A stretch of 64,000 nucleotides of DNA, from NCBI RefSeq assembly GCF_036511935.1, contig NZ_AP028878.1, positions 3,596,001-3,660,000 of the forward strand, in the 5' to 3' direction. Both the position numbers and the translations under genes were made by a program. This DNA comes from Marinobacter nanhaiticus D15-8W (GTDB lineage Bacteria > Pseudomonadota > Gammaproteobacteria > Pseudomonadales > Oleiphilaceae). Below the pieces are notes generated by a model, which was not told where the DNA came from, made no database searches, and was given only the letters and a program-made list of their open reading frames with translations. Positions 14,563-28,541 of the stretch are shown here, in pieces (positions within the stretch are counted from its first letter, which is position 1; the number at the start of each line of letters is the position of its first letter).

Positions 14563-15297
14563 TCAGAAAACCAGCCGCGTCCCGACTACGACAAACCAGT
14601 CTTCCGTACTTCCACCGCCAACTTCAGCAAGGTCCTTCGTATCGCCATACTTACGCTCATGTACCACGCCGATATAAGGTGAGAACAAACGATCGATAAC
14701 ATCATAGGACAGACGGGCCCCAAGCTCGGTACTCGCAAGTCCCTGTCCCAGGCCAATCTCCTTGTCCTCGGAAAAGGCCACTGTTGTATCCAATCCCAGA
14801 TTCAGGATTAGATGATTGGTGAGCAGGAGTTCGTACTCGGCATCAAGTTCCGCCGAAGCATCCCCTTCATCACTCACATAGACACTGGCATCGACTTCAA
14901 ACCAGTATGGAGCAAGCCCGGCGATACCCAGCACACCGTATGTGCGGTCTGGCCCTTCCGGCGTGTCGACCCTGATACCCAGTTTGGCATCGAAGAAATC
15001 CGAAATCGGTTTCTGCAGCAGAAGCTGGTTTTCCAGGGATTCGTAGGCCTGCTCCTCAATCTCATACTCGCCCTTGGTCAACCAGCGGAACTTGAGTTCA
15101 TCGGAACCATAGAATGCGTCGGCATCCCAGACGCCCAGCTCGGCGTCGTCATCGCTGTAGCGGTATTCAAGTTCCTCCACCTGGACACCCCAGAAATGGC
15201 TGTAGGTGTGTCCGCCCCGCTCTTGCGCGGTGACAAGTCCGGGTAGCAGCATCATCGAGCCTATAAGCAGGGACAGCGTAACAACCTGCTTCTTCAT
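14563..15297 (-). CDS. copB: CopB copper resistance outer-membrane protein
   Basis: 244 residues with a signal peptide (LSLLIGSMMLLPGLVTAQ). The mature part alternates short amphipathic strands and acidic turns, with LKFRWLTKGEYE, the EQAYESLENQLLLQKPISDFFDAKLGIR block and a final FVVVGTRLVF ending in Phe, as in outer-membrane barrels of the CopB family. The usual His/Met-rich N-terminal segment is missing here, so this is a short form. Its start overlaps the end of copA by four bases. CopB is thought to take part in copper sequestration or export across the outer membrane. Confidence 0.88.
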   Translation of the reverse strand: MKKQVVTLSLLIGSMMLLPGLVTAQERGGHTYSHFWGVQVEELEYRYSDDDAELGVWDADAFYGSDELKFRWLTKGEYEIEEQAYESLENQLLLQKPISDFFDAKLGIRVDTPEGPDRTYGVLGIAGLAPYWFEVDASVYVSDEGDASAELDAEYELLLTNHLILNLGLDTTVAFSEDKEIGLGQGLASTELGARLSYDVIDRLFSPYIGVVHERKYGDTKDLAEVGGGSTEDWFVVVGTRLVF

Positions 15298-17192
15298 GCA
15301 TCACCTCCCTGGCTGACTTCATCTGCGCCGGTCACCTGATCCGGCCCGCCTTCGACGATCACTTTGCGGAACATGCCTGACGCGGCGTGGTACGAAAGAT
15401 GGCAATGGAATGCCCATTGGCCCGGCGCATCGACTTCCGTCTCCATAAAGACGGTGGTCCCCGGCTGTACGCTGATCACGTGTTTAACCGGGTTCCACTG
15501 GCCCGCCCCAACATCGAGGATCGACCACATGCCGTGCAGGTGCATCGGGTGCGTCATCATGGTTTCGTTGACGAATTTGAAGCGTACCCGTTCACCGTAT
15601 GTCAGACGGATGGGCTCGGCGTCCTCGTATTTGATGCCGTTGATGCTCCAGCTATAGCGCTCCATGTTACCGGTCAGCCGCAACTCGATCTCCCGCGTGG
15701 GTTCACGATCGTCGTAGAGTGGTTTCTGCGCCCGCAGGTCGGCGTAGGACAGGAACTTTCCGCCGTTGGCCGCCGTCGGTATCAGGCCGCTACCCGGCGC
15801 ATAGAAAGGATCGGTCGCGGCTTCCGTGGAAACCATCGCGCTGTGCCCCATAGCGTCGTGATTCATCGAAGCCTGCGCCGGTTCCCCATGCGCCATAGGC
15901 CCGTCATGCCCGGAATGGTCACCGGCTGGCATGGGTTGATGATCGTTGGCCGTACCATGACTCATTCCGTGATTCGCCCCGTGACCCATGGTGCTATGGT
16001 CCATCACAGCCGGGTCCATCACGGCCTGGTTCATATCGGCATGCGCCATCTCACTGTGTTTCATCGCGCCGTGATCCGTTGCACTGTGCCCGGTCATCCC
16101 GGCATCCATCACGTGCCCACCATGGTTACCATGATCCATACCGGGCATACCTGACATATCCGCCATCGTCAGTAACGGAGGAGCGCGCCGTTCGGGAACA
16201 TCGGCAACCATGCCTTCTTTCGGCGCCAGCGTTCCGCGGGCATAACCGGACCGCCCCATGGATTCGGCAAAAATCGTGTAGGCACGTTCTTCGCGCGGCC
16301 GAACGATCACATCGTAGGTTTCGGCCACGCCGATGCGGAACTCATCGACGGTTACCGGCTGAACATTGTTGCCGTCCGCTTCCACAACAGTCATTTCCAG
16401 TCCGGGAATACGGATGTCGAAGTAGGTCATGGCTGATGAGTTGATAAAGCGCAGCCGAATCCGCTCACCGGGCTGGAACAGGCCGGTCCAGTTCTGGGCC
16501 GGCCCTTTGCCGTTAATCAGGCCAGTGAAACCCTGCACGTCCTCGATATCTGCTTTCATCATTCGCATGTCGCCCCACATCAGACGGTCCTGCAGCGTTG
16601 CCCAGAACCCCTTTTGGTCCGACTCTGCAAAGAAATCCCCAACGGTTTGCTGATGGCGGTTGTAATAATCCGGCATCATCTTAAGGTTGCGCATGATGCG
16701 CTCGCCGCTATGGGGATGTTTGTCGGTCAACTGCACGACATATTCCCGGTCGTAACGGAACGGCTCACGCCCTTCAGGCTCGATCACGATGGCGCCATAC
16801 GCACCGTTGGGCTCCTGGAAGCCAGAATGGCTGTGGAACCAGTAGGTGCCACTTTGGACGATGGGGAACCGATAGGTGAACGTCTCGCCCGGCGCGATCC
16901 CCGGATAGCTGATCCCGGGGACGCCGTCCTGTTCATAGGGCAGGATAAGTCCATGCCAGTGAATCGAGGTGGTGACATCCAGGTTATTGGTGACGTTGAT
17001 GGTGACCGTCTCGCCTTCTTTGAAGCGCAGGGTCGGTCCCGGCGACTGCCCGTTATAGCCGATACCTTCACGGGCGAAGTCGCCGGTATCAATCATGACC
17101 CGGTCGACTGTAATGTCATACTCACCAGCCTCAAGCGCCAGCGGCGCCAACAGCACACCCAGCGTGGCTGTCAGTCGCAATAGAAACCTCAT
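15294..17192 (-). CDS. copA: CopA-type multicopper oxidase
   Basis: 632 residues with signal peptide (ATLGVLLAPLALEAGE). All four copper motifs are present: HWHGLILPYEQDG, WFHSHSGFQ, THPMHLHGMW and AFHCHLSYHAASGMF. Between the second and third cupredoxin domains (about residues 345-460) lies a long insertion made almost only of Met, His, Gly, Asp and Ala (MDHGNHGG, MDHSTMGHG, MSHGTANDHQPM and similar), like the methionine-rich copper-binding repeats of PcoA/CopA. The protein oxidises Cu(I) in the periplasm. It follows the cupredoxin gene after about 57 bases. Confidence 0.95.
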   Translation of the reverse strand: MRFLLRLTATLGVLLAPLALEAGEYDITVDRVMIDTGDFAREGIGYNGQSPGPTLRFKEGETVTINVTNNLDVTTSIHWHGLILPYEQDGVPGISYPGIAPGETFTYRFPIVQSGTYWFHSHSGFQEPNGAYGAIVIEPEGREPFRYDREYVVQLTDKHPHSGERIMRNLKMMPDYYNRHQQTVGDFFAESDQKGFWATLQDRLMWGDMRMMKADIEDVQGFTGLINGKGPAQNWTGLFQPGERIRLRFINSSAMTYFDIRIPGLEMTVVEADGNNVQPVTVDEFRIGVAETYDVIVRPREERAYTIFAESMGRSGYARGTLAPKEGMVADVPERRAPPLLTMADMSGMPGMDHGNHGGHVMDAGMTGHSATDHGAMKHSEMAHADMNQAVMDPAVMDHSTMGHGANHGMSHGTANDHQPMPAGDHSGHDGPMAHGEPAQASMNHDAMGHSAMVSTEAATDPFYAPGSGLIPTAANGGKFLSYADLRAQKPLYDDREPTREIELRLTGNMERYSWSINGIKYEDAEPIRLTYGERVRFKFVNETMMTHPMHLHGMWSILDVGAGQWNPVKHVISVQPGTTVFMETEVDAPGQWAFHCHLSYHAASGMFRKVIVEGGPDQVTGADEVSQGGDA

Positions 17193-17249: not shown

Positions 17250-17804
17250 TTATTCGACAGCGACGTCGCCCACCATGCCAGCTGCGTAGTGACCCGGTAC
17301 GTTGCAGGCAAACTCAATGGGCTGGGCCCCGGCTTGAGCGAATGTCCAGGCGATCTCGGCCTCTTCGCCCGGTGCCAGCAGAACCCGGTGCGGCGCCGCA
17401 TGCGACATCGAATGACCGTTGCCCATTCCCTCAGTCATCATCGAGCGATTCAGCTTATTGCCCTGGATGACGCCATGGGCCACGAACATCTGCATCTCAT
17501 CATCGGATGCAGCGTGGGTTTCCGGCGTACCGAGACTGAATTCGTGGACGAGGTTGCCCTTGTTGGAAATCCTGAACAGCACTGTTTCTCCGGGCTCCAC
17601 AGACAAGCTTTCCGGCTCGAAGTAGTTATCGTGCATCACCACATTGATGGTTCGCCCGGCGGCCGACACTTGCGCCGGACTACCGAAGTTGGCGTGACCG
17701 GAGTGACCACCATGGGCGCCGGCGGCGTGGGACGCGACCGGCAAAATGGAGAGAGCCATAACCATGACGCCTACAAGTGCCTGTCGTGACTTGAATTGGT
17801 TCAT
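17250..17804 (-). CDS. cupredoxin (plastocyanin/azurin-like), copper operon
   Basis: 184 residues, signal peptide ending ASHAAG, then a His-rich patch (AHGGHSGHANF). The cupredoxin fold shows the VEPGETVLFRISN strand, HEF as first copper-ligand region and a C-terminal FACNVPGHYAAGM with Cys, His and Met ligands of a type 1 site. An unusual insertion between them is Met-rich (NRSMMTEGMGNGHSMSH). It is the first gene of the copper operon and starts about 220 bases from the divergent regulator gene. It probably carries periplasmic copper or electrons. Confidence 0.87.
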   Translation of the reverse strand: MNQFKSRQALVGVMVMALSILPVASHAAGAHGGHSGHANFGSPAQVSAAGRTINVVMHDNYFEPESLSVEPGETVLFRISNKGNLVHEFSLGTPETHAASDDEMQMFVAHGVIQGNKLNRSMMTEGMGNGHSMSHAAPHRVLLAPGEEAEIAWTFAQAGAQPIEFACNVPGHYAAGMVGDVAVE

Positions 17805-17939
17805 TTCCTATCCTCGAATACGCTCATAACGAGACAGCGCCATTACCCAAAGCGACGGTACCGCTGCCTGAATCGGTCTTTAATATGCGCGCCCAAGCTG
17901 AAACCATGCTGAATTCCTGATTTTTATTTTTGCGCCCGG

Positions 17940-17956
17940 TTCAGTCCGGTTTCAGT
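17940..17956 (+). promoter_or_regulatory. putative response-regulator box, TTCAGT-N5-TTCAGT
   Basis: Two identical TTCAGT hexamers start exactly 11 bp apart (17940 and 17951) in the gap between the copper operon and the regulator gene. Direct repeats at this spacing are typical of OmpR-family binding sites. A similar box (TTCATT-N5-TTCAGT) lies before the complex-I-like operon at 20079-20095. Confidence 0.5.
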
Positions 17957-18025: not shown

Positions 18026-18691
18026 ATGAGACTGCTTCTGGTAGAAGATGATGCAATGCTTGTGGAGACCCTGAAGAAGGGGTTGGCCGATGCCGGTTTT
18101 GCCGTCGACTGGGTTGGGACCGTGTCTCACGCCAAATCGTTGGGTCTACAGGAACAATACCGCGCGGTCATACTGGATATGGGGTTGCCCGACGGAGACG
18201 GATTGCAGGTGCTGCGTTACTGGCGCCAGCATCACAACAACGTCCCCGTCCTTATTCTGACTGCACGCAGCGATTGGCAGGACAAGGTCAACGGCCTGAA
18301 GGCCGGCGCCGATGACTACTTGGCCAAGCCCTTCCATACCGAAGAGTTGGTCGCCCGTATTCATGCGTTGGTAAGACGAAGCGAAGGGCGCAGCGACTCC
18401 CGCATCCGTGTCGGAGACTATGCCCTGGATGAAGACCGCCAACAGGTACAGACCACGGATGGAGAATGGCACACCCTGACGGGCACCGAATTTCGTCTGT
18501 TACGGTGCCTGATGACGCGCCCGGGCCGGTTACTCTCGAAAGACGAGTTAATGGAACAGCTCTACAGTCTGAAAGACGAGCCGGCACACAATACGATCGA
18601 AGCGTACATTCGGCGCCTGCGACTGATTGTCGGCCGTGATGCCATTTCGACACAACGCGGACAGGGCTACAGCTTCAATGCCAAATCCTGA
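18026..18691 (+). CDS. OmpR-family response regulator, probable copper regulator
   Basis: 221 residues; ATG preceded by AAGGAGAG. Receiver domain (1-115) has the acidic pair in VEDDAML, phosphoacceptor Asp in VILDMGLPDGDG, the Thr in LILTARS and the Lys in LAKPFHTEEL. A winged-helix domain (about 125-220) ends NTIEAYIRRLR..GQGYSF. It is divergent from the copper operon and overlaps the next gene, a sensor kinase, which argues for a CopRS/CusRS-like copper-sensing pair. By sequence it could equally be called PhoP-like, so the copper role is inferred from position. Confidence 0.88.
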   Translation: MRLLLVEDDAMLVETLKKGLADAGFAVDWVGTVSHAKSLGLQEQYRAVILDMGLPDGDGLQVLRYWRQHHNNVPVLILTARSDWQDKVNGLKAGADDYLAKPFHTEELVARIHALVRRSEGRSDSRIRVGDYALDEDRQQVQTTDGEWHTLTGTEFRLLRCLMTRPGRLLSKDELMEQLYSLKDEPAHNTIEAYIRRLRLIVGRDAISTQRGQGYSFNAKS

Positions 18692-20048
18692 CGGCATAGT
18701 GAACCGGGCAGGCTATTCCCTGCGTGCAAAACTCCTGCTCTGGCTGTTGCCACTGATGGTGGTGTTCATGTGGGGAGCATGGCTGATCCACGGCGCATTG
18801 CTCGATCGCATGACAGCCGATTTCGTAGAGTCGCGTCTTCGCCAGGAAGCCCGGTTTCTGGAGCGCCAACTTGAGGAAGCAGCGCCGTCAGAGGACTTGG
18901 CGTACACCGCTGGACGCTACTTCGAAGACGTTTTCCACCACGCCTTCGCCATTCGCCTGGGGCACCGAACCTACTTGTCGTCGACCCAACTGGCATCGGT
19001 TCTCGAGCCGGCCCTTGAGGAACAAGGCACCCGCTTTCTTCGAGCCGGTGGTGGGTCGATGCCAGAACTCCTGCTTTTCCGTCACGTCGCAAGGATGGGT
19101 GACGAGCCTCTGGTGATCGTGGTCGCCGAAGACCTGACGACATTACGCGACAGTCAATCCGAGCTCCACGCCTGGACGGCGGCGGTCGCCATTGGTCTGC
19201 TCGGCGTATTGATCGTTCTCGTACTGTTGGCCGTCTACCTTGCACTTAAGCCGGTTCGCTCCCTACAGGGTTCCCTGCAGGCCTTTCAGGAAGGTCGCCA
19301 GGCGCGGCTGGAACTGACGGCGCCTCGCGAATTTTTGCCATTGATCCGCCAGATAAACCACCTCCTTGACCGACTCGATCAGCGGTTGGAGCGCTCGCGT
19401 CAAGCCCTCGCAAACCTGTCCCACAGCATCAAGACGCCTATAGCGGCGATCCAGCAAGCGCTGGAAGATACCCAACGCCCGCTGGACGACGATTATCGTC
19501 GACGGCTGGCGGCCCGCTTATCGGACATAGACCACCAACTCGAAGCGGAGATGCGCCGTACCCGGTTCGCGGGGCCGGATGTCGGCAAACAGGCACATCC
19601 GGTTCAACAGGCGCACGATCTCGTCTGGATGCTGGGCCGGCTCCACCCCGAAAAGAACTTCGAGCTCAATACCGATCTGCCAAACGAGTTCACGTGGTCC
19701 GTGGAAGAACATGACCTGAGCGAGATGCTTGGCAACCTGCTGGACAACGCGGGCAAATGGGCCAACCGACATGTCAGCGTGACTATCATCCAGCGCCAGA
19801 ATATCCTCGCTATCACGGTCACTGACGATGGGCCCGGCGTAGCCGCCGAAGAACTCCCTACACTCGGAACCCGCGGCCTGAGACTCGACCAGCAAAAACC
19901 CGGTCACGGGCTGGGGCTTGCGATTGTTCGTGACCTCATCGCCCGATACGAGGGACGCTTGGGTTTCAGGCAGGGCGATGTGGGCGGGCTGGTAGTGACA
20001 TTGGAACTCCCCCGTCCCGGCTTCGGTCGGGGATTGCCGAACGCATGA
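18678..20048 (+). CDS. sensor histidine kinase partner of the copper-linked regulator
   Basis: 456 residues if started at ATG 18678, inside the last codons of the regulator gene. Two membrane segments (about 15-36 and 170-192) bracket a periplasmic region of about 130 residues. Then come HAMP-like sequence, the phosphorylation His in LANLSHSIKTPIAAI, the N box GNLLDNAGKWA, TDDGPGV and GHGLGLAIVRDLIA. The periplasmic region lacks obvious Met/His clusters, so direct copper sensing is not apparent. It resembles PhoQ/CusS-type kinases in layout. Confidence 0.87.
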   Translation: MPNPDGIVNRAGYSLRAKLLLWLLPLMVVFMWGAWLIHGALLDRMTADFVESRLRQEARFLERQLEEAAPSEDLAYTAGRYFEDVFHHAFAIRLGHRTYLSSTQLASVLEPALEEQGTRFLRAGGGSMPELLLFRHVARMGDEPLVIVVAEDLTTLRDSQSELHAWTAAVAIGLLGVLIVLVLLAVYLALKPVRSLQGSLQAFQEGRQARLELTAPREFLPLIRQINHLLDRLDQRLERSRQALANLSHSIKTPIAAIQQALEDTQRPLDDDYRRRLAARLSDIDHQLEAEMRRTRFAGPDVGKQAHPVQQAHDLVWMLGRLHPEKNFELNTDLPNEFTWSVEEHDLSEMLGNLLDNAGKWANRHVSVTIIQRQNILAITVTDDGPGVAAEELPTLGTRGLRLDQQKPGHGLGLAIVRDLIARYEGRLGFRQGDVGGLVVTLELPRPGFGRGLPNA

Positions 20049-20078: not shown

Positions 20079-20095
20079 TTCATTTTCAGTTCAGT
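20079..20095 (+). promoter_or_regulatory. putative response-regulator box before the complex-I-like operon
   Basis: TTCATT (20079-20084) and TTCAGT (20090-20095) start 11 bp apart with a further overlapping TTCAGT at 20085. The pattern matches the box at 17940-17956 in one half-site exactly and in the other with one mismatch. It lies about 150 bases before the first gene of the nuo-like operon. Control by the adjacent OmpR-type regulator is a hypothesis. Confidence 0.35.
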
Positions 20096-20247: not shown

Positions 20248-20604
20248 ATGGAACTGAAACAATTACTGGTCCTGCTGATCGTTGCGCTTATTACCGCCGC
20301 CTTCGGTCTCTGGATCCAGCGTACCCCCAGACCATCGAAACACCCCATCACCTGGCCCCAGCGGGCACCCTTCCTGGGCGGCGGGCAGCCGGACACGCAT
20401 GCCTGGTCGCGGTTCCACGTGCGCTACTACCCCATGACGCTGCTGCTCATCGCCTTCGAAATGGAGATGATGTTCATGTATCCCTGGGCCGTGGTCTACG
20501 TGTCAGAGGGCATCAAGGCCCTGTCCGAAATGGGCATGTTCCTCGGCATCCTCTCCATCGGCATCCTCTACGGCTGGCGCGAGGGGGCATTCAAATGGCA
20601 ATGA
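20248..20604 (+). CDS. NuoA-like subunit of a complex-I-like membrane complex
   Basis: 118 residues from ATG 20248 (an in-frame TTG at 20200 would give 134). Three membrane helices. The subunit A signature FHVRYYPMTLLLIAFEMEMM matches the F-x-V-x-Y-Y...LLF-D-x-E block of NuoA, with Glu at both acidic positions (FEME where enterobacterial NuoA has FDVE). It is first in an eight-gene operon of complex-I homologues and overlaps the next gene by 10 bases. In standard complex I this subunit borders the quinone channel. Confidence 0.85.
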   Translation: MELKQLLVLLIVALITAAFGLWIQRTPRPSKHPITWPQRAPFLGGGQPDTHAWSRFHVRYYPMTLLLIAFEMEMMFMYPWAVVYVSEGIKALSEMGMFLGILSIGILYGWREGAFKWQ

Positions 20605-21896
20605 AATGGCTGCAAAAGCAGGCCGGACGCGCGCCCTTGCCGGTGTTTCCGATCATCGGCCGCGGCGGTGAGGCGACGCTCGATGCACTGCATCTTTCTC
20701 CGGGCGTCGAGATCACAGCTTCCCCCAGACACGCCAGGGCCTTGGTGGTGCTGGGTACCGTCGAACCCTACGACCATGATGCCCTCAAGCGGGTTCACGA
20801 CCAGGTGCCTGTCCCGCGGATCAGCCTCTGGTGCGGCAACACGCCGGTCCCGGAGGAGCTACGCAGCTCGGCCATCAAGACAACAGCGCCGGAAGAACTC
20901 GTGGAACGCGCCAGGGTCGCCTACCGGAAGCTGATCAGTGGCGAACATGCCGGCGACATCAACCTCTGCCTCGACGAGCCCCCGGCGCCCTGGAAGGGGC
21001 TGGGGGACGGTCACGGTGGAGAAGGCATGATGGGCGGCAAGCCCTACGGACGCCCCATGGCTATGCCGGAGGACGACCTGCGCGACGGCCTGCAGCTCGA
21101 CCCGCTGGATTTCACCCTGGGTCCGTTTTCGTCCCTATTACCGCCAGGCATGAGCGCTCGCATCAAACTTCACGGTGACGTCATTGCTGACTTCGAGGTT
21201 ATTTCCAAGCCCTATCCACGTACGCTCCCGGACGTGTTCTATCAAGCACAGCGACGCCCGGTACCACTGGCCGACCTGGAGCTGGCCCGTGCCGGGTATC
21301 ACCTGCGCCGGTTGAGCCATGCCTTGCAAATCAACGGTCTCGGCGCCTATGCCACACGTCTGCGCCGGCGTGCCGCGCACCTGCGTCCGGACCAGCCCAA
21401 GGGCGAGCTGGCGCCGGCTTCCGTGTGGCGTTCGCTATTCAGGTCGGCCGGCGCCCATCAAGGCGTCGTGACCGGCGACAGCGTGGCGAGACTGCGCGGC
21501 TCCGCAGCCCGGGCTGCAGGTGCGAACACCGACAGTCGCAGCCAGGACCCAGCCTATACCTCCCTGGGGTTCCAGCCAGTGGTCCAACACTCTGGCACCT
21601 GTGGCGCACGCTGGAAACAGTGGCTCGACGAAGCAGACCAAGCCCTGAAGCTGGCCCTCTCCGCGCATAAGAACGAAGCCTTGAGTTCGCCGTCCCATAT
21701 CGTGGAATCCCCGCTGGGACCGCTGACGAAGTCTGACCCGCCTGTGGACTGTAGCGACCTCCTGCCGTCACTGCTTGTCGGCCTGGAATGGAGCGAGGCC
21801 ATGTCGGTCATCGCCAGCCTGGACCTGGCGGCTGTCGATGAGGGCGCGGCTCCCAATGAAACAGGGACTGCCGATGAAGGAGGGGCCATATCATGA
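20595..21896 (+). CDS. degenerate NuoB-NuoD-like fusion protein
   Basis: 433 residues. Residues about 15-125 align with NuoB: ASPRHARALVVLGTV and VHDQVPVPRISLWCGN correspond to the family's SPRxAD...VAGT and YDQMPEP...GSCAN. The paired cysteines of the N2 cluster are replaced by Gly-Gly (GRGGEATLDAL), and the PGCPPRP loop is gone (KTTAPEELVERA). Residues about 155-260 resemble the start of NuoD (LDFTLGPFSSLLPPGMSARI, then LHGDVI), but the quinone-site GPQHPSTHG has become GPFSSLLPPG. A Gly/Met/His linker (DGHGGEGMMGGKPYGRP) joins them. The last 170 residues have no recognised counterpart. No N2 cluster can form; the role is probably structural or conformational. Confidence 0.7.
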   Translation: MAMKWLQKQAGRAPLPVFPIIGRGGEATLDALHLSPGVEITASPRHARALVVLGTVEPYDHDALKRVHDQVPVPRISLWCGNTPVPEELRSSAIKTTAPEELVERARVAYRKLISGEHAGDINLCLDEPPAPWKGLGDGHGGEGMMGGKPYGRPMAMPEDDLRDGLQLDPLDFTLGPFSSLLPPGMSARIKLHGDVIADFEVISKPYPRTLPDVFYQAQRRPVPLADLELARAGYHLRRLSHALQINGLGAYATRLRRRAAHLRPDQPKGELAPASVWRSLFRSAGAHQGVVTGDSVARLRGSAARAAGANTDSRSQDPAYTSLGFQPVVQHSGTCGARWKQWLDEADQALKLALSAHKNEALSSPSHIVESPLGPLTKSDPPVDCSDLLPSLLVGLEWSEAMSVIASLDLAAVDEGAAPNETGTADEGGAIS

Positions 21897-22818
21897 CGGT
21901 AGATCTTCTTCTCGGCTCCGTATGCACGGTACTCGCGGCGCTGTTCATCGGTATCTATTGTGTCGCGGCGATGGATAGCGCCGTGTATACACGTATCACC
22001 GGCGCCTATGGCCGCAATAGCCTGATGGCGCCGCTGCAGGATGCGGCGAGCCTCTGGTACGCCCCGAAAACCAGACTGAAGCACCCGATCGCGCTGCCTG
22101 GAGACTCGCTCCCGTCCTATATCTGGTATTGGCCGCCATGGGACTGGCCCTCGTGCCCTGGACCGCCGACTTCGTGCCGGTAGACCTGACCACGGGCATC
22201 GTTCTCTGGGGCGCGTTGGAGCCTTTGGCCACCGTGGTTATATTCCTGCAGGGCTGGGCCCCGAACGCCCACTTTCCGCTGATTGGCGCCTATCGATATG
22301 TCTCTCTGGGGCTGTCCTACATCCTGGTAAGCATGTTCGTATTGATCGGCGTTGCGTTGCCTGCGGAATCCCTGCAGGTCAGTGCCGTCGTCGAGTCTCA
22401 GGCGGAACTGTGGAATGTCATCCGCCAGCCGCTCGGACTACCGCTGTTCCTGCTCGTCGGGCTTGGTATCAGCTTCTGGGGCCCACTGAACTTTGCAGAT
22501 TCCGACGACCTGGCGGGCGGCGCATCCTCCGAAGCATCAGGCCGGACTCGCCTGCTCTGGCAGATGGGACGCGCGGCGATGCTCGTCGCCTTCGCCGCCA
22601 TCGGTGCTTCCGCCTTCCTGGGCGGTTGGCAGGGGCCGTGGCTGCCTGGCCCCGTGTGGGTGATCCTTAAGACGCTGGCCGTGCTATTCGCGCTAATCCT
22701 TCTCGGACACCATCTGCCGCGCCCGTCACCGGAACGTTTCCTGACTCTTGCCTGGGTGGTCCTGCTGCCGCTGGCCTTCGTGGACCTGGCCTGGGCCGGT
22801 GTGGAGGCCTTGTTATGA
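21893..22818 (+). pseudogene. NuoH-like subunit, interrupted by a one-base frameshift
   Basis: The first reading frame (21893 onward) gives LLGSVCTVLAALFIGIYCVAA and PLQDAASLWYAPK, as in NuoH. After the A-run at 22067-22070 it leaves the family pattern. Adding one A restores NQTEAPDRAAWRLAPVLYLV and continues to 22818, ending in seven or so helices. Total length would be about 308 residues, normal for NuoH. The loop that normally reads P-F-D-x-P-E-A-E and lines the quinone chamber is GPLNFADSDDLAGGA here, so its Glu residues are lost. Since the rest of the operon is intact, sequencing error or slippage is as likely as true loss. Confidence 0.75.
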
Positions 22819-23423
22819 GTGCCGTCGATATCGTCTTTTTTATCAACGCCGCCATTGCCATCTACGCCGGTTGGCGCGTGTTCGTCACGGATTCCATGGT
22901 GCGCGCCTCGTTCTTCCTGCTGGTCTCGTTCCTGGCGGTGGGCGTGATCATGCTGCTGCTGGCGGCTATTTACCTCGGTGTGGCGCTGTTCTTCATGATG
23001 GCCGTGGAAATGATGGTGATGGCGCTATTCATGGTCATGTTCATGATGAATCCGGCCGGCTTGAACCCGATGAAGATGGTGCATCAGGAAAAGGTGGCCA
23101 TCGGCGTGGGCGTTGTGGCTTTCGTGGCACTTGGTGCCGTCGCGCTGTTCGGTGAATTTCCCAGCCGCCCCGTGCCAGAGGGCCTGGAGCCAGTGGTTTC
23201 ACTGGGTCACGAACTGCTCGGGGATTCCATGCTCGTCTTCGAATCCGCCGGCGTGACCCTGCTGGCGACGATGATCGCGGTGGTCATGCTCACCAGTCAC
23301 AAAGGTCGCTACGGCGACGCGAACGAAGGTTCCCAGCCGCCGGGTCTGGAACCCGGTGGCGATCCGGCGGATAAGCCGCCCGAGGACGAGGGCGGCGGAC
23401 ACCACCATCATCACTGCCATTGA
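22815..23423 (+). CDS. NuoJ-like subunit with a His-rich C-terminal tail
   Basis: 202 residues, starting four bases inside the nuoH-like stop. Five membrane helices follow the NuoJ pattern, including VRASFFLLVSFLAVGVIMLL and IYLGVALFFMMAVEMMVMA; the latter has an unusual number of Met residues. The C-terminal 35 residues form a hydrophilic tail ending DEGGGHHHHHCH, a potential metal-binding cluster absent from ordinary NuoJ. Neighbours are the nuoH-like and nuoK-like genes; a GGAGAG ribosome site for nuoK sits at 23459-23464. Confidence 0.85.
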   Translation: MSAVDIVFFINAAIAIYAGWRVFVTDSMVRASFFLLVSFLAVGVIMLLLAAIYLGVALFFMMAVEMMVMALFMVMFMMNPAGLNPMKMVHQEKVAIGVGVVAFVALGAVALFGEFPSRPVPEGLEPVVSLGHELLGDSMLVFESAGVTLLATMIAVVMLTSHKGRYGDANEGSQPPGLEPGGDPADKPPEDEGGGHHHHHCH

Positions 23424-23468
23424 CCTCCTGGCGCGAGGTTTGGCCGATACAGAGACAAGGAGAGCTCC

Positions 23469-23774
23469 ATGACACTGGCTACACTCCTGATCCTTGCCGC
23501 CGCGCTGATTGGCATCGGCCTCTATGGCGCGTTCTCGCAGCAGTCCTTCGTCATGCTGATGATGGGGCTGGAACTCATCCTCAATGGCGCCATGCTGGCC
23601 GCTGTCAGTTTCTGGGCGCTGACCGGTGGCGGCGCACCCGAGGGACAGCTGTTGACCATCATCGTCATGGCGGTGATGGCGATCGAGATGGCCATGGGCT
23701 TCGCCCTGGTAATCTCCGTCTATCGCGCCAAGCAGGCTGACATGACCGAAGCCCTGGACGGATTGAAACAGTGA
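23469..23774 (+). CDS. NuoK-like subunit
   Basis: 101 residues, normal NuoK length, three helices. Both family glutamates are retained: one in MMGLELILNGAML, the other in MAIEMAMGFALVISVYR, equivalent to Glu36 and Glu72 of E. coli NuoK, which take part in proton translocation. ATG follows AAGGAGAG with good spacing. The stop overlaps the start of the nuoL-like gene. Confidence 0.92.
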   Translation: MTLATLLILAAALIGIGLYGAFSQQSFVMLMMGLELILNGAMLAAVSFWALTGGGAPEGQLLTIIVMAVMAIEMAMGFALVISVYRAKQADMTEALDGLKQ

Positions 23775-25645
23775 TGCTCTGGTTGGTTCCACTTTTCCCT
23801 ATCGTTGCCAGCCTGCTGCTGTATGGTTGGTGGCAACGGACATCCTCTCGCCCGGCGCTTGCGGGGTCGGCCGCCGGCGTGGTCGCGGTTACGCTCGCAT
23901 TGGTGATATTCGCGGAAGCGTCAGGTTGGACAGGAACACTGACCTGGAGCGATACGCTCAGCCTGCAGATCGGCTTCACGCCGATGACGCACCTGGCGGC
24001 ACTGGTCGTACCACTGGTGGCCGCGCCTATCATTTTCTACGCTGCTGTTCACGAACCGGCGCAACGCCTGGGCCGGCTCGTTGCGCTGCTGGTGGCCTTC
24101 ACCGGCGCGATGGAGTTGATCATCCTCGCCCGTGATCTGCTGAGCCTATTGATTGCCTGGGAAATCGTCGGGGCTTTGTCCTGGGCGCTGATTGGCCATG
24201 ACTTTAACGACCGCGGAAAAGCCCGTAACGCCTCACAGGCGTTCATGACCACCCGCACCGGCGATCTGGGCCTCTACCTGGCGGCGTTCATCGCTTTCTC
24301 ACAAACCGGCAGCCTGGCCTACGCCGATCTCGCGCAAATGAGTCCGGAGGCCATGAGCCTATTTGCCGCCGGTGTCACCCTGGCGGCGCTGAGCAAATCG
24401 GCTCAGGTGCCGTTCGCGCCCTGGCTGTTCTCAGCGATGTCCGGCCCGGCGCCGGTCTCAGCCCTGCTCCATGCGGCAACCATGGTGGCCGCCGGGGTTA
24501 TCCTGCTGGCGCAATTCCAGCCTATCCTGGCGAGTGTAGCCTGGCTCGGACCGCTGCTGATCGCGGCCGGTCTGACCACGGCGCTGGCCGGCGGTCTCGT
24601 GGCGGCCGCATCGCCTCACGCCAAACGTCTACTGGCAGGCTCCACATCCGCCCACTACGGGCTGATGTTTATCGCCATCGGCGCGGGCTACCCCGCAATC
24701 GCCTTGACCCACTTTGCCATGCATGCGCTGATGAAAGCGCCTCTGTTCCTGACTGCAGGTATAGCCGGCCAGAGAGCGGGCTCCTATGAACTTGGCGAAA
24801 TAGCAGGCACATCACTACCCAAGGGACTTCGGCCCGCTTCCCTGGTCGCCGTACTTGCCCTTGCCGGCCTCGTACCGCTCGGCCCGGCCTGGAGTAAGGA
24901 GGCAGTCGTCACATCCGCAGGCCTGGCTGCTCCGTGGCTGGCCATTCTCGTCGCTCTCGCGGGCGGCCTCAGCGCGCTTTATGCTGCGCGCTTTCAGGGG
25001 TGTCTCTTTCCCCGTTTAGTCGACGTAAAAACAGGCCCCGACCCGGCCCACGAGTCCCACGGCGGGTTACAACGTGCGCCGATCTATTTCCTTGTCGTGC
25101 TGGTGCTCCTGAGCAGCGCAATCTGGCTGCCAGCAGTGCATAGCACGGTAGGTCAATGGCTGGTGACCGCCTTTCCATCGACCAAGCTTTGGGAGTTTGC
25201 CGTTTCCCTGCTGCTTGTGCTGGCCGGTCTTTACCTTGGCCGGCGCCTGGCCACCCGCGAGTTGACTGGCCAGTCGCAATCCGGCGCCATTCGCCGTTTC
25301 CTGACCCAATGGATGCTGCTGCCCCGGGCGGCCCGATTGTTCGTCGTAAAACCCGTCGATGGTCTGGCGAACGCGCTGGCCTCGTTTGATACACGCGTGG
25401 TCGATGCCGGTATTCGCGTAACGGCTCGCCTGACGCTCTGGCTATCCAACGTGGGCAGCCGATCGATCGAGTGGCTGTTCGACGGACTGCCTGAGGGCCT
25501 GGCCCAGCTTTCCGGCAAGGCCGGCGAGAGCACACGCCAGCTGCAGTCCGGCATGCTGCACCACTACTACAGCCTGATCGCCATTGGCATTGCCGCCATG
25601 GTTCTTATCCTGATTCTGGGCATGATCACAGGAGGATTATCTTGA
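23771..25645 (+). CDS. NuoL-like antiporter-type subunit
   Basis: 624 residues, GTG at 23771 or ATG at 23774. It has the Proton_antipo_M core with about 14-16 helices. Proton-channel residues are present: Glu in LLIAWEIVGALSWALIGHDF, Lys in LSKSAQVPFAPWLFSAMSGP and the HAATMVAAGV histidine. The C-terminal extension after residue 480 is amphipathic and contains the expected lateral-helix region before a last membrane segment (SLIAIGIAAMVLILILG). It could also be compared with DabB or MrpA, but the neighbours fit complex I. Confidence 0.9.
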   Translation: MMLWLVPLFPIVASLLLYGWWQRTSSRPALAGSAAGVVAVTLALVIFAEASGWTGTLTWSDTLSLQIGFTPMTHLAALVVPLVAAPIIFYAAVHEPAQRLGRLVALLVAFTGAMELIILARDLLSLLIAWEIVGALSWALIGHDFNDRGKARNASQAFMTTRTGDLGLYLAAFIAFSQTGSLAYADLAQMSPEAMSLFAAGVTLAALSKSAQVPFAPWLFSAMSGPAPVSALLHAATMVAAGVILLAQFQPILASVAWLGPLLIAAGLTTALAGGLVAAASPHAKRLLAGSTSAHYGLMFIAIGAGYPAIALTHFAMHALMKAPLFLTAGIAGQRAGSYELGEIAGTSLPKGLRPASLVAVLALAGLVPLGPAWSKEAVVTSAGLAAPWLAILVALAGGLSALYAARFQGCLFPRLVDVKTGPDPAHESHGGLQRAPIYFLVVLVLLSSAIWLPAVHSTVGQWLVTAFPSTKLWEFAVSLLLVLAGLYLGRRLATRELTGQSQSGAIRRFLTQWMLLPRAARLFVVKPVDGLANALASFDTRVVDAGIRVTARLTLWLSNVGSRSIEWLFDGLPEGLAQLSGKAGESTRQLQSGMLHHYYSLIAIGIAAMVLILILGMITGGLS

Positions 25646-27129
25646 TTCTGACCGCCGCACTGGTCGTACCCTTACTTGGCGCATTGGCCCTCGCCCTTTG
25701 GCCCGGTTGGTCGCGATCGGCGGCGCGGGCCTTTGCGGTGGTCACCACGCTGGTACCGCTGCTGCTGATGGTTATCGCCTGGAGTCGGTTCGACACGGGC
25801 GGCAGCATGTTCCAGTTGGTCGAGGAGGTCGACTGGGTACCCTCACTGGGGATGGGGTTCCGCCTGGGCGTCGATGGCATCGCCCTGGCCGTGGCCGCCA
25901 TGACGGCGCTGCTTTTCACCGGTGCCGCAGCCTATCCGGTCGACACCCGGGGTGCCGCACGCCAGTACTATGCCTGGATCCTGTTCCTGGAAATGGCCTC
26001 CCTCGGTGTGTTCCTTGCCTTGGACCTGCTGCTCTTCTACGTCTTCTTCGACCTCACCCTGGTAGGCATGTACTTCCTGATCGGCCGCTGGGGCCACGGC
26101 GAGCCCCAGTCCGCAGCGCTGAAGTTCTTCCTGTATACGCTGTTTGGCTCATTGTTCCTGCTACTGGCGATTCTCGGCCTCTACCTTTCCGCGGACCCGC
26201 TGACCTTCGACATGCGCGAGCTGATCCAACAGCAACCGCTGGCCGGCGCAGGCACGTTTGCCGGTGTGGTGATGGCCGCCTTCCTGCTGGGCTTCATCAT
26301 CAAGACACCGCTGGTGCCATTCCATACCTGGCTGCCGCGGGCCCACGTGGATGCCCCAGCCCCGGCCTCCGCCATCCTGGCCGGCGTCCTGCTGAAAATG
26401 GGCACCTACGGTCTGATCAGGATTCCCTACAGCATGATGGCTGAGACCTTTGCTGCCTGGGCCTTGCCGCTCGGCATCCTCGCACTGGTCTCCATTCTCT
26501 ATGGCGCCCTGGTGGCTCTGGGACAGAAGGACATCAAACAGCGCATTGCCTATACCTCGATCAACCACATGGGCTATGCGGTGCTGGGTATTGCGGCGGC
26601 AGGCGCCCTGCTCGATGGTAGCGAGACCGCCCGCTCCATGGCGCTGATCGGCGCGACGGTCGAGATGGTGGCCCACGGTCTGATCACCGGTGCGCTCTTC
26701 CTGATCGCCGGGTCCTTCTGGCAGCGTGGCGAGACCTATCGTCTGGCGGATTACGGAGGTCTCTCCGGACGAACGCCTAAACTGGCCGGGATGACCACCG
26801 TGGCAGCCTTCGCCAGCCTGGGCCTTCCCGGGTTGGCCGGGTTCGTCGCCGAGTTCCATATTTTCGTGGGGACATTCGGCGTGTATCCATGGCTGGCTGC
26901 TATCGGGCTGCTGGGCATCCTGATTACGGCCGCGCTGTTCCTGCGGATGTTGCAGTCGTTGTTCTTCGGCCAACTGCCCGAACGCTGGAATACGATGGCT
27001 GACCTGAAGACCAGCGAAATCGCCGTCTTGGGCGTATTCATGGTGCTGGTCGTCTTGATCGGCGTCTATCCGGCGTTCCTGCTCGACATCATCAATACAT
27101 CCGCGCGCTGGCTCGTGGGAGGCGGCTGA
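25642..27129 (+). CDS. NuoM-like antiporter-type subunit
   Basis: 495 residues. The TTG start at 25642 is chosen because AGGAGG (25630-25635) lies at ideal distance and it overlaps the nuoL-like stop. Core motifs are FIIKTPLVPFHTWLPRAHVD with the channel Lys, and LLKMGTYGLIRI with the second Lys. The helix-5 position that is Glu in E. coli NuoM (FFFWEMMLVPMYFL) reads FYVFFDLTLVGMYFL, that is, Asp. It is therefore likely still a working proton or ion channel subunit. Confidence 0.92.
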   Translation: MILTAALVVPLLGALALALWPGWSRSAARAFAVVTTLVPLLLMVIAWSRFDTGGSMFQLVEEVDWVPSLGMGFRLGVDGIALAVAAMTALLFTGAAAYPVDTRGAARQYYAWILFLEMASLGVFLALDLLLFYVFFDLTLVGMYFLIGRWGHGEPQSAALKFFLYTLFGSLFLLLAILGLYLSADPLTFDMRELIQQQPLAGAGTFAGVVMAAFLLGFIIKTPLVPFHTWLPRAHVDAPAPASAILAGVLLKMGTYGLIRIPYSMMAETFAAWALPLGILALVSILYGALVALGQKDIKQRIAYTSINHMGYAVLGIAAAGALLDGSETARSMALIGATVEMVAHGLITGALFLIAGSFWQRGETYRLADYGGLSGRTPKLAGMTTVAAFASLGLPGLAGFVAEFHIFVGTFGVYPWLAAIGLLGILITAALFLRMLQSLFFGQLPERWNTMADLKTSEIAVLGVFMVLVVLIGVYPAFLLDIINTSARWLVGGG

Positions 27130-28541
27130 TGCCTGTCGCTGATCTCTTGCCGGAACTGGTCCTGCTGATCGGCGCCGCTGTCATCATCGTCACGGCGGCT
27201 TTCCTGCCCCATCGTCTGCATGGGCTTTGCGCCCTGCTGGCAACTGGCGTACTGGTCGCCAGCGCGGGGCTGGTGGTGACCGGCTGGTCGAGGCCAGACC
27301 ACCTGACATTTGCCGGCGTCTGGGCACTGGATGGTGCAGCCCGGTTCGCCAAGCTGCTGATTATCTCTAGCGGCGTTGCCTCGGCGGCACTTTCTCCCCA
27401 CTGGATGGCCACGGACCGCCGACACGGGGAATATTACGGCCTCCTGCTATTCGCGGTGCTGGGCGCGATCATGATGGCATCGGCCGCCGACACCATGGAA
27501 CTCGTCGTGGGTGTCCTGCTGTCTTCGGTGACGGGATATGCACTGGTGGGCTATCACCGGCAGTGGAGCCCGGCGCAGGAAGCCGCCATGAAGTATTTCC
27601 TGGTGGGCGCGCTGGCCAACGCGCTGCTGGTGATTGGTGTCGTTCTATTGTTTGGTCTGACGGGGGCCACCGGCTATACCGAAATGGCTGGCCGATTGGC
27701 AGAGAATCCCGACCCCTGGGTGGTGATCACTGCGCTGGTGCTCATCCTGATCGGGCTTGGGTTCAAGTTAGGTGCCAGCCCTGCACACATGTGGATGCCC
27801 GATGTGGCCCAGGGGGCGCCTGCGCCGGTCGCTGCGCTGGTCACGGTGATTACCAAGGTGGGTGCCGCCGTCGCCCTCGCCCGCCTGGCAGCCGTTCTGC
27901 CGGAAGCCATTCCCTGGCGTTGGGCGATCGCACTGATGGCGGTAGTGACGATGACCTGGGGTAACCTGGCAGCGCTCTGGCAATCGAATCTCAGACGGCT
28001 TCTGGGATGGTCGGCCATCTCCCAGTCGGGCTACGCGCTGGTCGCAATCGCTGTTCTGGGAGCGACTGAACAGGCATTGCCGGCCCTCATGGTCATCCTG
28101 ACCGCCTACGCCATCGCCAACCTGGCCGCCTTCTCGGTTGTGACCCACCTACGCGGCCGGACCGAACTTGCTGACTACCGCGGCCTTGCTCAACAGCGGC
28201 CTTGGGCGGCGGCCGTACTTATCCTGGCGCTGCTCTCGTTTCTGGGTCTACCACCGCTCGTAGGGTTCTTTGGCAAGCTTCTCGTATTCGGGGCCGCTAT
28301 TGATGGCGGTTATACCTGGCTAGCGGTGGCAGCAGTGATCAACACCGTGGTATCCCTGTTCTATTACCTTCGGGTGATCGCGCCAATGGTATTTGGCACG
28401 CCGGAAGATACGTCTGCTCAACTGGGTTGGCCGTCAGCGGTCACCATGGTGATCACCGGCCTAATGGTGGTGTTTCTGGGCCTGGGAATCGAAAGCCTGA
28501 TAGGACTCGCCCGAGACGGAACCCTTCTCCTGCTTCGTTAA
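27129..28541 (+). CDS. NuoN-like antiporter-type subunit, last gene of the operon
   Basis: 470 residues; start overlaps the nuoM-like stop (TGATG). It keeps the channel Lys in GLGFKLGASPAHMWMPDVAQ and the second in VITKVGAAVALAR. The helix-5 Glu of NuoN appears lost: the GVE-type motif reads VVGVLLSSVTGYALVGY. C-terminal SFLGLPPLVGFFGKLLVF is typical. The gene ends convergently, its TAA overlapping the stop of the CAP-domain gene on the other strand. Confidence 0.9.
   Translation: MPVADLLPELVLLIGAAVIIVTAAFLPHRLHGLCALLATGVLVASAGLVVTGWSRPDHLTFAGVWALDGAARFAKLLIISSGVASAALSPHWMATDRRHGEYYGLLLFAVLGAIMMASAADTMELVVGVLLSSVTGYALVGYHRQWSPAQEAAMKYFLVGALANALLVIGVVLLFGLTGATGYTEMAGRLAENPDPWVVITALVLILIGLGFKLGASPAHMWMPDVAQGAPAPVAALVTVITKVGAAVALARLAAVLPEAIPWRWAIALMAVVTMTWGNLAALWQSNLRRLLGWSAISQSGYALVAIAVLGATEQALPALMVILTAYAIANLAAFSVVTHLRGRTELADYRGLAQQRPWAAAVLILALLSFLGLPPLVGFFGKLLVFGAAIDGGYTWLAVAAVINTVVSLFYYLRVIAPMVFGTPEDTSAQLGWPSAVTMVITGLMVVFLGLGIESLIGLARDGTLLLLR

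Follow-up and report, generated by a model that had tools for sequence, protein, structure and literature searches.

The Mrp Na+(K+)/H+ antiporter is a proton machine without redox chemistry, built of NuoL/M/N/K-type subunits and encoded by an MrpA-G set that holds no NuoH-, NuoA-, or B/D-like subunit. Mbh, Mbs, and FHL are redox enzymes that keep the proximal cluster. Among Cu(I) exporters, P1B-type ATPases and CusCBA use Met-based Cu(I) paths, and exporting P-type ATPases carry their metal-binding domains on the cytosolic side. A complex-I-type proton subunit is also found in DAB2 (DabA/DabB), which excerpts of one report describe as hydrating CO2 at the expense of the proton motive force together with a cytosolic non-redox partner (PMC13144422).

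Here, we analyzed an operon at positions 20248-28541 of a 64,000-nucleotide stretch of Marinobacter nanhaiticus D15-8W (contig NZ_AP028878.1, 3,596,001 to 3,660,000; the whole stretch is called the window below). Like complex I (NuoA-N/NDH-1), it encodes A, H, J, K, L, M, and N together with a B/D-like protein in nuo order and keeps the channel residues of L and M as well as K Glu36 and Glu72. In contrast to complex I, the family to which it belongs has no C, E, F, G, or I, its B and D are fused and their redox motifs gone, H Glu157 and N Glu133 have been lost, and Met, His, and Glu residues and a metal-binding linker have been gained. The A-, H-, and B/D-like genes set it apart from Mrp, and the redox chemistry and proximal cluster of Mbh, Mbs, and FHL distinguish those enzymes from it. 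The family shares metal-binding domains (PF19335-type) with a P-type ATPase; however, unlike P1B-type ATPases or CusCBA, the operon encodes neither an ATPase nor an RND protein, and its membrane part is a complex I arm. DAB2 differs in its carbonic-anhydrase-like partner, and the excerpts on it contain no metal-export theme (PMC13144422). We consider the chance somewhat better than even that the operon encodes an eight-subunit descendant of complex I without redox chemistry, which handles Cu(I), possibly Ag(I), as a proton-driven exporter. We found no recognized description of this complex in the open-licence PubMed Central literature searched, and a term search of the main text of two copper-gene inventories (PMC8478169, PMC9948745) found no NADH or quinone oxidoreductase.

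A conserved membrane arm without redox genes

The operon contains the following features (window coordinates):

20248..20604, + strand: A subunit (NuoA/ND3-like), PF00507 E 5.7e-23
20595..21896, + strand: B/D fusion of 433 amino acids, with a NuoB-like N-terminal part, a metal-motif linker, and a NuoD-like C-terminal part
20991..21095, + strand: linker of the fusion (residues 133-167) with the GMMGG..PYGR..MAM motif, delimited by alignments and a predicted local distance difference test score (pLDDT) < 50
21893..22183, + strand: H subunit (NuoH/ND1-like), first of two overlapping reading frames, no Pfam match
22129..22818, + strand: H subunit, second reading frame, PF00146 E 1.6e-35
22815..23423, + strand: J subunit (NuoJ/ND6-like) with a His-rich tail, PF00499 E 1.2e-16
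22995..23084, + strand: Met-rich transmembrane helix 3 (TM3) and the next loop of J, TM3 placed by alignment to E. coli NuoJ
23469..23774, + strand: K subunit (NuoK/ND4L-like), PF00420 E 5.4e-15
23771..25645, + strand: L subunit (antiporter-like), PF00361 E 7.8e-39
25642..27129, + strand: M subunit (antiporter-like), TIGR01972 478.5 bits
27129..28541, + strand: N subunit (antiporter-like), PF00361 E 5.2e-55

This composition bears out a sequence-only reading of the window, which had described homologues of NuoA, H, J, K, L, M, and N with a NuoB-like/NuoD-like protein in this order and no C, E, F, G, or I; none of these five lies between the operon genes. The same reading spoke of eight overlapping genes, which is correct for six of seven junctions, while J and K are 45 bases apart, and it counted H as one gene, which in the window consists of two overlapping open reading frames (21893-22818) rather than one open frame. 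Pfam cut-offs of complex I families were passed by A, the second H frame, J, K, L, M, and N. Most NCBIfam scores fell below the equivalog cut-offs; M passed TIGR01972 (478.5 versus 263.8 bits), and K passed one NuoK model (59.8 versus a cut-off of 57). Database records annotate the operon genes as NADH-quinone oxidoreductase subunits and the fusion as "hypothetical protein" or "heavy metal-binding domain-containing protein".

The operon represents a real, conserved, and mobile family with the layout A-(B/D fusion)-H-J-K-L-M-N. The 41 members compared fall into a window sub-family (23 members analyzed) and a sister sub-family (18); 40 belong to Pseudomonadota, and the remaining one is carried by an Actinomycetota plasmid. 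The sequence-only reading had proposed to check whether the gene order is conserved, and the first genome search found it complete in 11/11 loci of GTDB genomes (three Marinobacter, Jiella, two Fulvimarina, Aurantimonas, Palleronia, Stakelama, and two metagenome-assembled genomes). The ratio of nonsynonymous to synonymous substitution rates (dN/dS) of the operon genes against G150, the closest relative found, was 0.016-0.114 (for H, second frame only). Thus, with the order kept in all these loci and such low dN/dS values, the operon is more than a chance arrangement, and the operon genes of the window other than H are under purifying selection.

These data also bear on the idea that the operon travels with copper islands as a membrane arm that is decaying or accessory and has no function of its own. 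It would account for the split H of the window, the broken M of L004 and G554, and the truncated remnants in Martelella, G018, and Xanthobacter; the low dN/dS values, the many residues invariant across two phyla, and the identical gene order in all members seen whole argue against it, and we regard it as very improbable. In the other members from which H was extracted (all but G1072), it reads as a single frame of 298-323 codons in 39/39, which rules out a programmed frameshift as a family trait.

Plasmids have spread the family across Alphaproteobacteria, Gammaproteobacteria, and Actinomycetota. Plasmid loci of the window sub-family were found in Halomonas, Vreelandella, Roseivivax, and Acuticoccus, with truncated copies in Martelella. 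The sister sub-family, which came to light through weak matches of a phylum-wide search, resides on plasmids of Paracoccus, Nitratireductor, Sulfitobacter, Roseovarius, and Thioclava and in two Rubrobacter records, one of which was examined. In an unrooted tree of seven joined subunits (45 taxa, 2252 columns), 25 family members separated from 20 canonical sets with an ultrafast bootstrap of 100, and the same value separated the two sub-families. Three control rows (c_L100 for M, c_L100 and c_L102 for N) are L-sized (715-731 amino acids) and probably wrong picks; their effect is confined to the canonical columns of M and N, whose branches in the tree they lengthen.

The operon is rare, patchy, and often plasmid-borne, as expected of a mobile trait. 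In the taxonomic family of the window, 8/163 genomes match, its own included, two of them weakly (the G018 remnant and G030 of the sister sub-family), and in the order 4/194. A phylum sample gave 5/398 at 290 bits or above, again including the source genome, plus G352, G394, G492, and G526 of the sister sub-family. The family of G394 has 12 matches in 248 genomes. An even sample of its alphaproteobacterial class (385 genomes) yielded a clear full match in G394 only; 38 of these genomes passed E 1e-9, all but G394 at no more than 53 bits and uninspected. Truncated remnants consisting of A and part of the fusion were seen on Martelella plasmids, in G018, and on Xanthobacter pXAUT01 (L034, L035, L088, and L204), adjoining copper, metal, or transposase genes. 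In a plasmid record of Vreelandella sulfidaeris (L031), most operon and cop genes lie in short frames, which suggests a low-quality sequence.

Lost redox motifs, retained channel residues, and gained putative metal ligands

Residues were counted in 41 members and 20 canonical homologues, using E. coli numbering. No CC pair, as expected of the N2 cysteines, was present in the frame of 38/38 fusions found by pattern (L200, L201, and G1072 are not among them), and the fusion alignment of the window sub-family contains no conserved Cys. The quinone motif GPxHPxxHG was absent from 40/40 fusions tested (the 38 found by pattern plus L200 and L201; G1072 stands outside), while it is present in E. coli and in the canonical CD protein of the host genome. 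The Glu equivalent to H Glu157 was lost in 39/39, that of N Glu133 in 40/40, and A Glu51 in 41/41. The sequence-only reading had described the cluster- and quinone-binding parts of the B-, D-, and H-like subunits as altered; N2 cysteines, quinone His motif, and H Glu157 are gone.

The host also carries a canonical nuo locus, with a CD-type gene at 2205655, an F-type match at 2207198, and L/M/N at 2214006-2218336, from which B, CD, A, H, J, K, L, M, and N were extracted. Because this separate locus includes the F-type match, the redox genes elsewhere lie next to a membrane arm of their own; they are thus unlikely to be the matching partners of the operon that the sequence-only reading had named as fatal to itself. 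PF01512, which is NuoF-type rather than NuoF-specific, matched in 16/16 genomes tested (15 carriers and the G018 remnant). The missing N2 cysteines and quinone motif, together with the separate nuo locus, agree with the proposal that the complex is not driven by NADH:quinone chemistry, and an NADH:quinone enzyme is a very unlikely product of this operon.

The antiporter-like subunits are largely preserved. L Glu144, Lys229, Lys342, and Lys399, M Lys234, and N Lys217, Lys247, and Lys395 are kept in 40/40, M Lys265 and Glu407 in 39/40 with one gap, and K Glu36 in 41/41; K residue 72 is Glu in 37 members and Asp in four. These kept channel residues suggest that the complex may translocate ions. 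The earlier statement that most channel residues are kept applies to both Glu of K and the channel residues of L. It conceals systematic changes elsewhere, namely the Glu losses of N and H and the replacement of M Glu144 by Asp, which was found in 23/23 members of the window sub-family. In the E. coli structure, the pi-bulge of J TM3 adjoins a cavity toward which H Glu157 and A Asp79 point, and a possible proton chain runs through J Glu55, K Glu36, K Glu72, and N Glu133 (PMC8357420). The loss of H Glu157 and N Glu133 would cut this chain at both ends, while its middle (A Asp/Glu79, A Glu81, K Glu36, and K Glu/Asp72) is kept.

Profile models hardly recognize the fusion. It scored 20.2 bits against PF00346 (NuoD; cut-off 24) and 18.9 bits against nuoB_fam (cut-off 142.7). 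An AlphaFold model built from an alignment of 12 family members had a mean pLDDT of 82.7, with values below 50 for residues 133-167; the linker is thus probably disordered. Foldseek aligned the model with NuoD-type chains over ~380 columns (best E 2.1e-6, template modeling score ~0.4, root mean square deviation 7-17 Å), with chain L of the archaeal MBS as the top fold match and a NuoB-type chain at rank 48. A sequence-profile search matched NuoB of solved complex I (best E 1e-7, ~40 columns).

The linker differs between the sub-families, and in both it carries a candidate metal-binding module. GMMGGxPYGRxMAM occurs as an exact pattern in 22/23 members of the window sub-family (G1072 gave no match and is uninspected). 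At the same place, 18/18 sister proteins contain the heavy-metal-binding motif YxCPMHPEV...PGxCPKCGM between one and five times, in most cases accompanied by long His-rich runs. Pfam assigned PF19335 to the linker of the three sister proteins scanned (E 2.6e-28, 3.5e-44, and 2.8e-28). The fusions of Jiella, Fulvimarina, and Aurantimonas (L006-L009) have His-rich C termini. For matches of intermediate score, we weighed a reading as ordinary B/C/D fusions and gave it up when L084 and L085 proved to carry PF19335 domains.

Could a linker-bound copper have taken the place of N2, so that electrons pass from Cu(I) or a cupredoxin to an acceptor while protons are pumped? The metal modules do separate the B-like from the D-like part, where N2 and the quinone site used to be, and cytochrome c and cupredoxin genes are neighbors at some loci. 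However, the quinone motif is absent from all fusions tested, the proton wire from the redox site to the pumps appears cut at both ends, and the operon has no cofactor chain. NuoB and NuoD are cytosolic by topology, which places the fusion presumably in the cytosol, whereas cupredoxins are periplasmic. We therefore rate such a copper-redox complex as highly improbable.

The membrane subunits have acquired Met in a concentrated manner. A scan of 35 members found three columns turned Met in A, 11 in J, four in K, one in M, and none in H, L, or N (Fisher p 2e-13 for the concentration in A, J, and K, based on approximate column totals). We re-counted 17 of the 18 A/J/K columns in 41 members including Rubrobacter, leaving out one J insertion column: 16 were Met in 41/41 and K73 in 40/41, while canonical sets have other residues there, except for J81 (Met in 2/20) and J138 (1/20). 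The gains include Met at positions 80, 82, and 85 of A and 30, 66, 69, and 73 of K (E. coli numbering), and they are accompanied by A S65H and by J A62E, R85H, and T132E, each in 41/41. Mean Met content in the two sub-families versus canonical sets was 8.1 and 11.2% versus 4.1% for J, 9.3 and 8.8% versus 4.0% for K, and 8.0 and 4.1% versus 3.0% for A; in L, M, N, and H, it was below the canonical level. A Met series like that of J TM3 was not found in the TM3 stretch of the solved NuoJ chains compared. These counts are not independent events, since members share ancestry and some of their sequences are almost the same (L030, G554, and G473; L086 and L087), and the Rubrobacter copy is the sole witness from a second phylum. 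On J TM3, the gained Met residues favor one helix face (p 0.003 for five chosen of six, post hoc; p 0.02 for all six). The J subunit of the window has a His-rich tail (23391-23420).

Parts of one structural study place loops of ND3 (A) and ND6 (J) at the peripheral-arm interface and describe ND6 TM3 as gating the link between the quinone site and the antiporters (PMC7613608). The gained His of A and J probably sit in these interface loops.

Copper genes and a shared promoter repeat

Next to the operon, the window contains a copper cluster and three copies of a direct repeat:

14563..15297, - strand: CopB, 43% identity to an annotated copper resistance protein B
15294..17192, - strand: CopA-type multicopper oxidase, 50% identity to an annotated "copper resistance system multicopper oxidase"
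17250..17804, - strand: cupredoxin, 35% identity to an annotated plastocyanin/azurin-family protein
17898..17913, - strand: TTCAK-N6-TTCAG, facing the cupredoxin and CopA-type genes
17940..17955, + strand: TTCAK-N6-TTCAG upstream of copR
18026..18691, + strand: CopR-type response regulator, 51% identity to the annotated copper-cluster regulator of Halomonas KO116
18627..20048, + strand: CopS-type sensor kinase that stops 200 bases short of A and has 41% identity to the kinase of Halomonas KO116
20079..20094, + strand: 11-bp direct repeat TTCAK-N6-TTCAG upstream of A

The CopRS genes lie directly upstream of the operon in the same direction, and a cytochrome c gene (29% match) lies on the same side as CopB, the CopA-type oxidase, and the cupredoxin. 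Using a panel of copper proteins drawn from four annotated plasmid loci, we found 17/24 window sub-family loci positive, counting remnants; four of these loci had supplied the panel, and three more are near-copies of those. After removal of all seven and addition of three later loci at a looser threshold, 11/20 were positive, or 10/20 if L011 is dropped, where a single CueR-type protein was the sole match. By comparison, copper genes were present at 0/22 canonical nuo loci (17-20 kb, with shorter flanks) and in 1/20 random 20-kb stretches of five carrier genomes, the one being a 31% match to a P-type ATPase. The window sub-family differed from the random stretches at p 6e-4, with family stretches of 11-36 kb. 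In the sister sub-family, none of the first five loci was positive, followed by 4/7 with a P-type ATPase nearby and 4/6 annotated plasmid loci with copper genes (none in Paracoccus and Thioclava), giving 8/18 in total. The Rubrobacter locus runs from DUF305 through a heavy-metal P-type ATPase, a metal-sensitive regulator, and a copper ion binding protein to the operon. CueR, heavy-metal P-type ATPase, and CopAB are among the annotated copper contexts on named plasmids, and the P-type ATPase near the G990 locus contains a PF19335-type motif.

Visual inspection of the sequence before A in the window, G150, and Halomonas first revealed the repeat, and its counts there are thus post hoc. Two of the three window copies lie in the divergent cop intergenic region and one before A (expected 0.15). 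In Halomonas KO116, five copies precede copC, the plastocyanin gene, the oxidase gene, the permease gene, and A (expected 0.07). The host genome has 35 sites, six of them within 12 kb at 3435414-3447785. This stretch, which was not used in finding the repeat, proved to be a second copper island (C1:3432000-3451999) with CopRS, CopAB, an APC permease, and a heavy-metal-type P-ATPase. Further loci with the repeat upstream of A are G467, G473, L031, and the G018 remnant. A longer form had no match in the host genome, and a perfect 7-base dyad upstream of A was missing in 10/13 loci, the dyads of L005, L007, and L013 sharing no sequence. The Pseudomonas CusR/CopR sites given in sections of one paper are palindromes (PMC11195947); because of this difference, the regulator of the direct repeat is something we can only infer.

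Judged by genomic company and promoter element, the operon would be a copper-resistance determinant, which holds in about half of the loci. The suggestion of the sequence-only reading that the arm is coupled to another input thus stands in outline, with the evidence pointing to copper; that reading had missed the Met/His gains, the metal-binding linker, and the copper neighborhood.

Proposed copper export and its rivals

A link of the complex to metal is highly likely, and coupling of export to protons has an even or marginally better chance. In the mechanism that we propose, the cytosolic B/D fusion would stand at the former quinone site and cluster N2, where its linker, through the Met motif or through heavy-metal-binding domains and His runs, would capture Cu(I). 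The ion might then be handed to the Met and His that the loops of A and J would have gained at the interface of the arms, and next to the ladder of Met residues that J (TM3), A, and K would form along the kept Glu of the former E-channel. Once Cu(I) reached the periplasm, CopA, CopB, and the cupredoxin could take over, while L, M, and perhaps N would let protons inward and so pay for export. We see an equal chance for and against this full picture, in which a soft-metal relay replaces the redox input and Cu(I)/Ag(I) export coupled to proton flow makes the complex a new class of metal transporter.

The main rival treats the metal as a switch: a copper-gated proton/cation antiporter would exchange H+ for Na+ or K+ under copper stress, as Mrp does, and restore pH or membrane potential. 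It would fit the kept antiporter residues of L and M, the K+ channel-type genes upstream of the operon in Acuticoccus and on two Martelella plasmids, the K+ channel-type homologues near it in Palleronia, G442, and G990, and the APC-type permease in several of the same cop clusters. However, Met gains in 18 columns of three different membrane subunits are more readily explained by a path than by one switch site, and the host already has a putative Mrp-type locus (1640351-1644409, with two PF00361 matches, one in a 939-codon frame). On balance, we consider the switch unlikely. The same path could also run inward, for copper uptake or for feeding copper enzymes, as a Met ladder alone gives no direction. 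This is improbable, as the genomic company is one of copper detoxification (CueR, heavy-metal P-type ATPase, and CopAB) and the metal-binding domains presumably face the cytosol, like those of exporting P-type ATPases.

Several observations weigh against proton-driven copper export. No convincing copper gene was found at 9/20 window sub-family and 10/18 sister loci, some of them at contig ends, and three of the eight sister positives are P-type ATPases of 34-40% identity. The second cop island of the host already encodes a P-type ATPase, 49% identical to a heavy-metal one. The repeat is missing directly upstream of A in L003, L004, L005, and G098, is on the other strand only in G554, and was not found in the alphaproteobacterial loci of the first search. 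The helix-face test was not significant for K (p 0.07) or A (p 0.86), and the placing of the gained Met columns in the E-channel is a reading from E. coli numbering. Last, the split H may mean that the window copy is defective or mis-sequenced.

If proton-driven copper export is right, evolution has performed a decoupling experiment, keeping the antiporter arm, removing the redox arm, and installing another process at the same spot. The family would then offer a redox-free system for studying the communication of the E-channel and J TM3 with L, M, and N, and would represent a new mobile copper, possibly silver, resistance machine. The annotation as NADH-quinone oxidoreductase subunits would mislead genome-based counts of respiratory enzymes. 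Were transport shown, a variant of the complex I superfamily would become a new class of metal transporter.

Two further kinds of genes recur near the operon. Ergothioneine, which binds copper, is represented by genes 3' of the operon in Halomonadaceae-type loci (egtB in L030, L031, and L069-L071, and egtD as well in L030), and an egtB match lies upstream of the operon in Jiella (L006). A small K+-channel-like gene recurs near alphaproteobacterial operons (L033, L034, L035, L012, L067, and L178).

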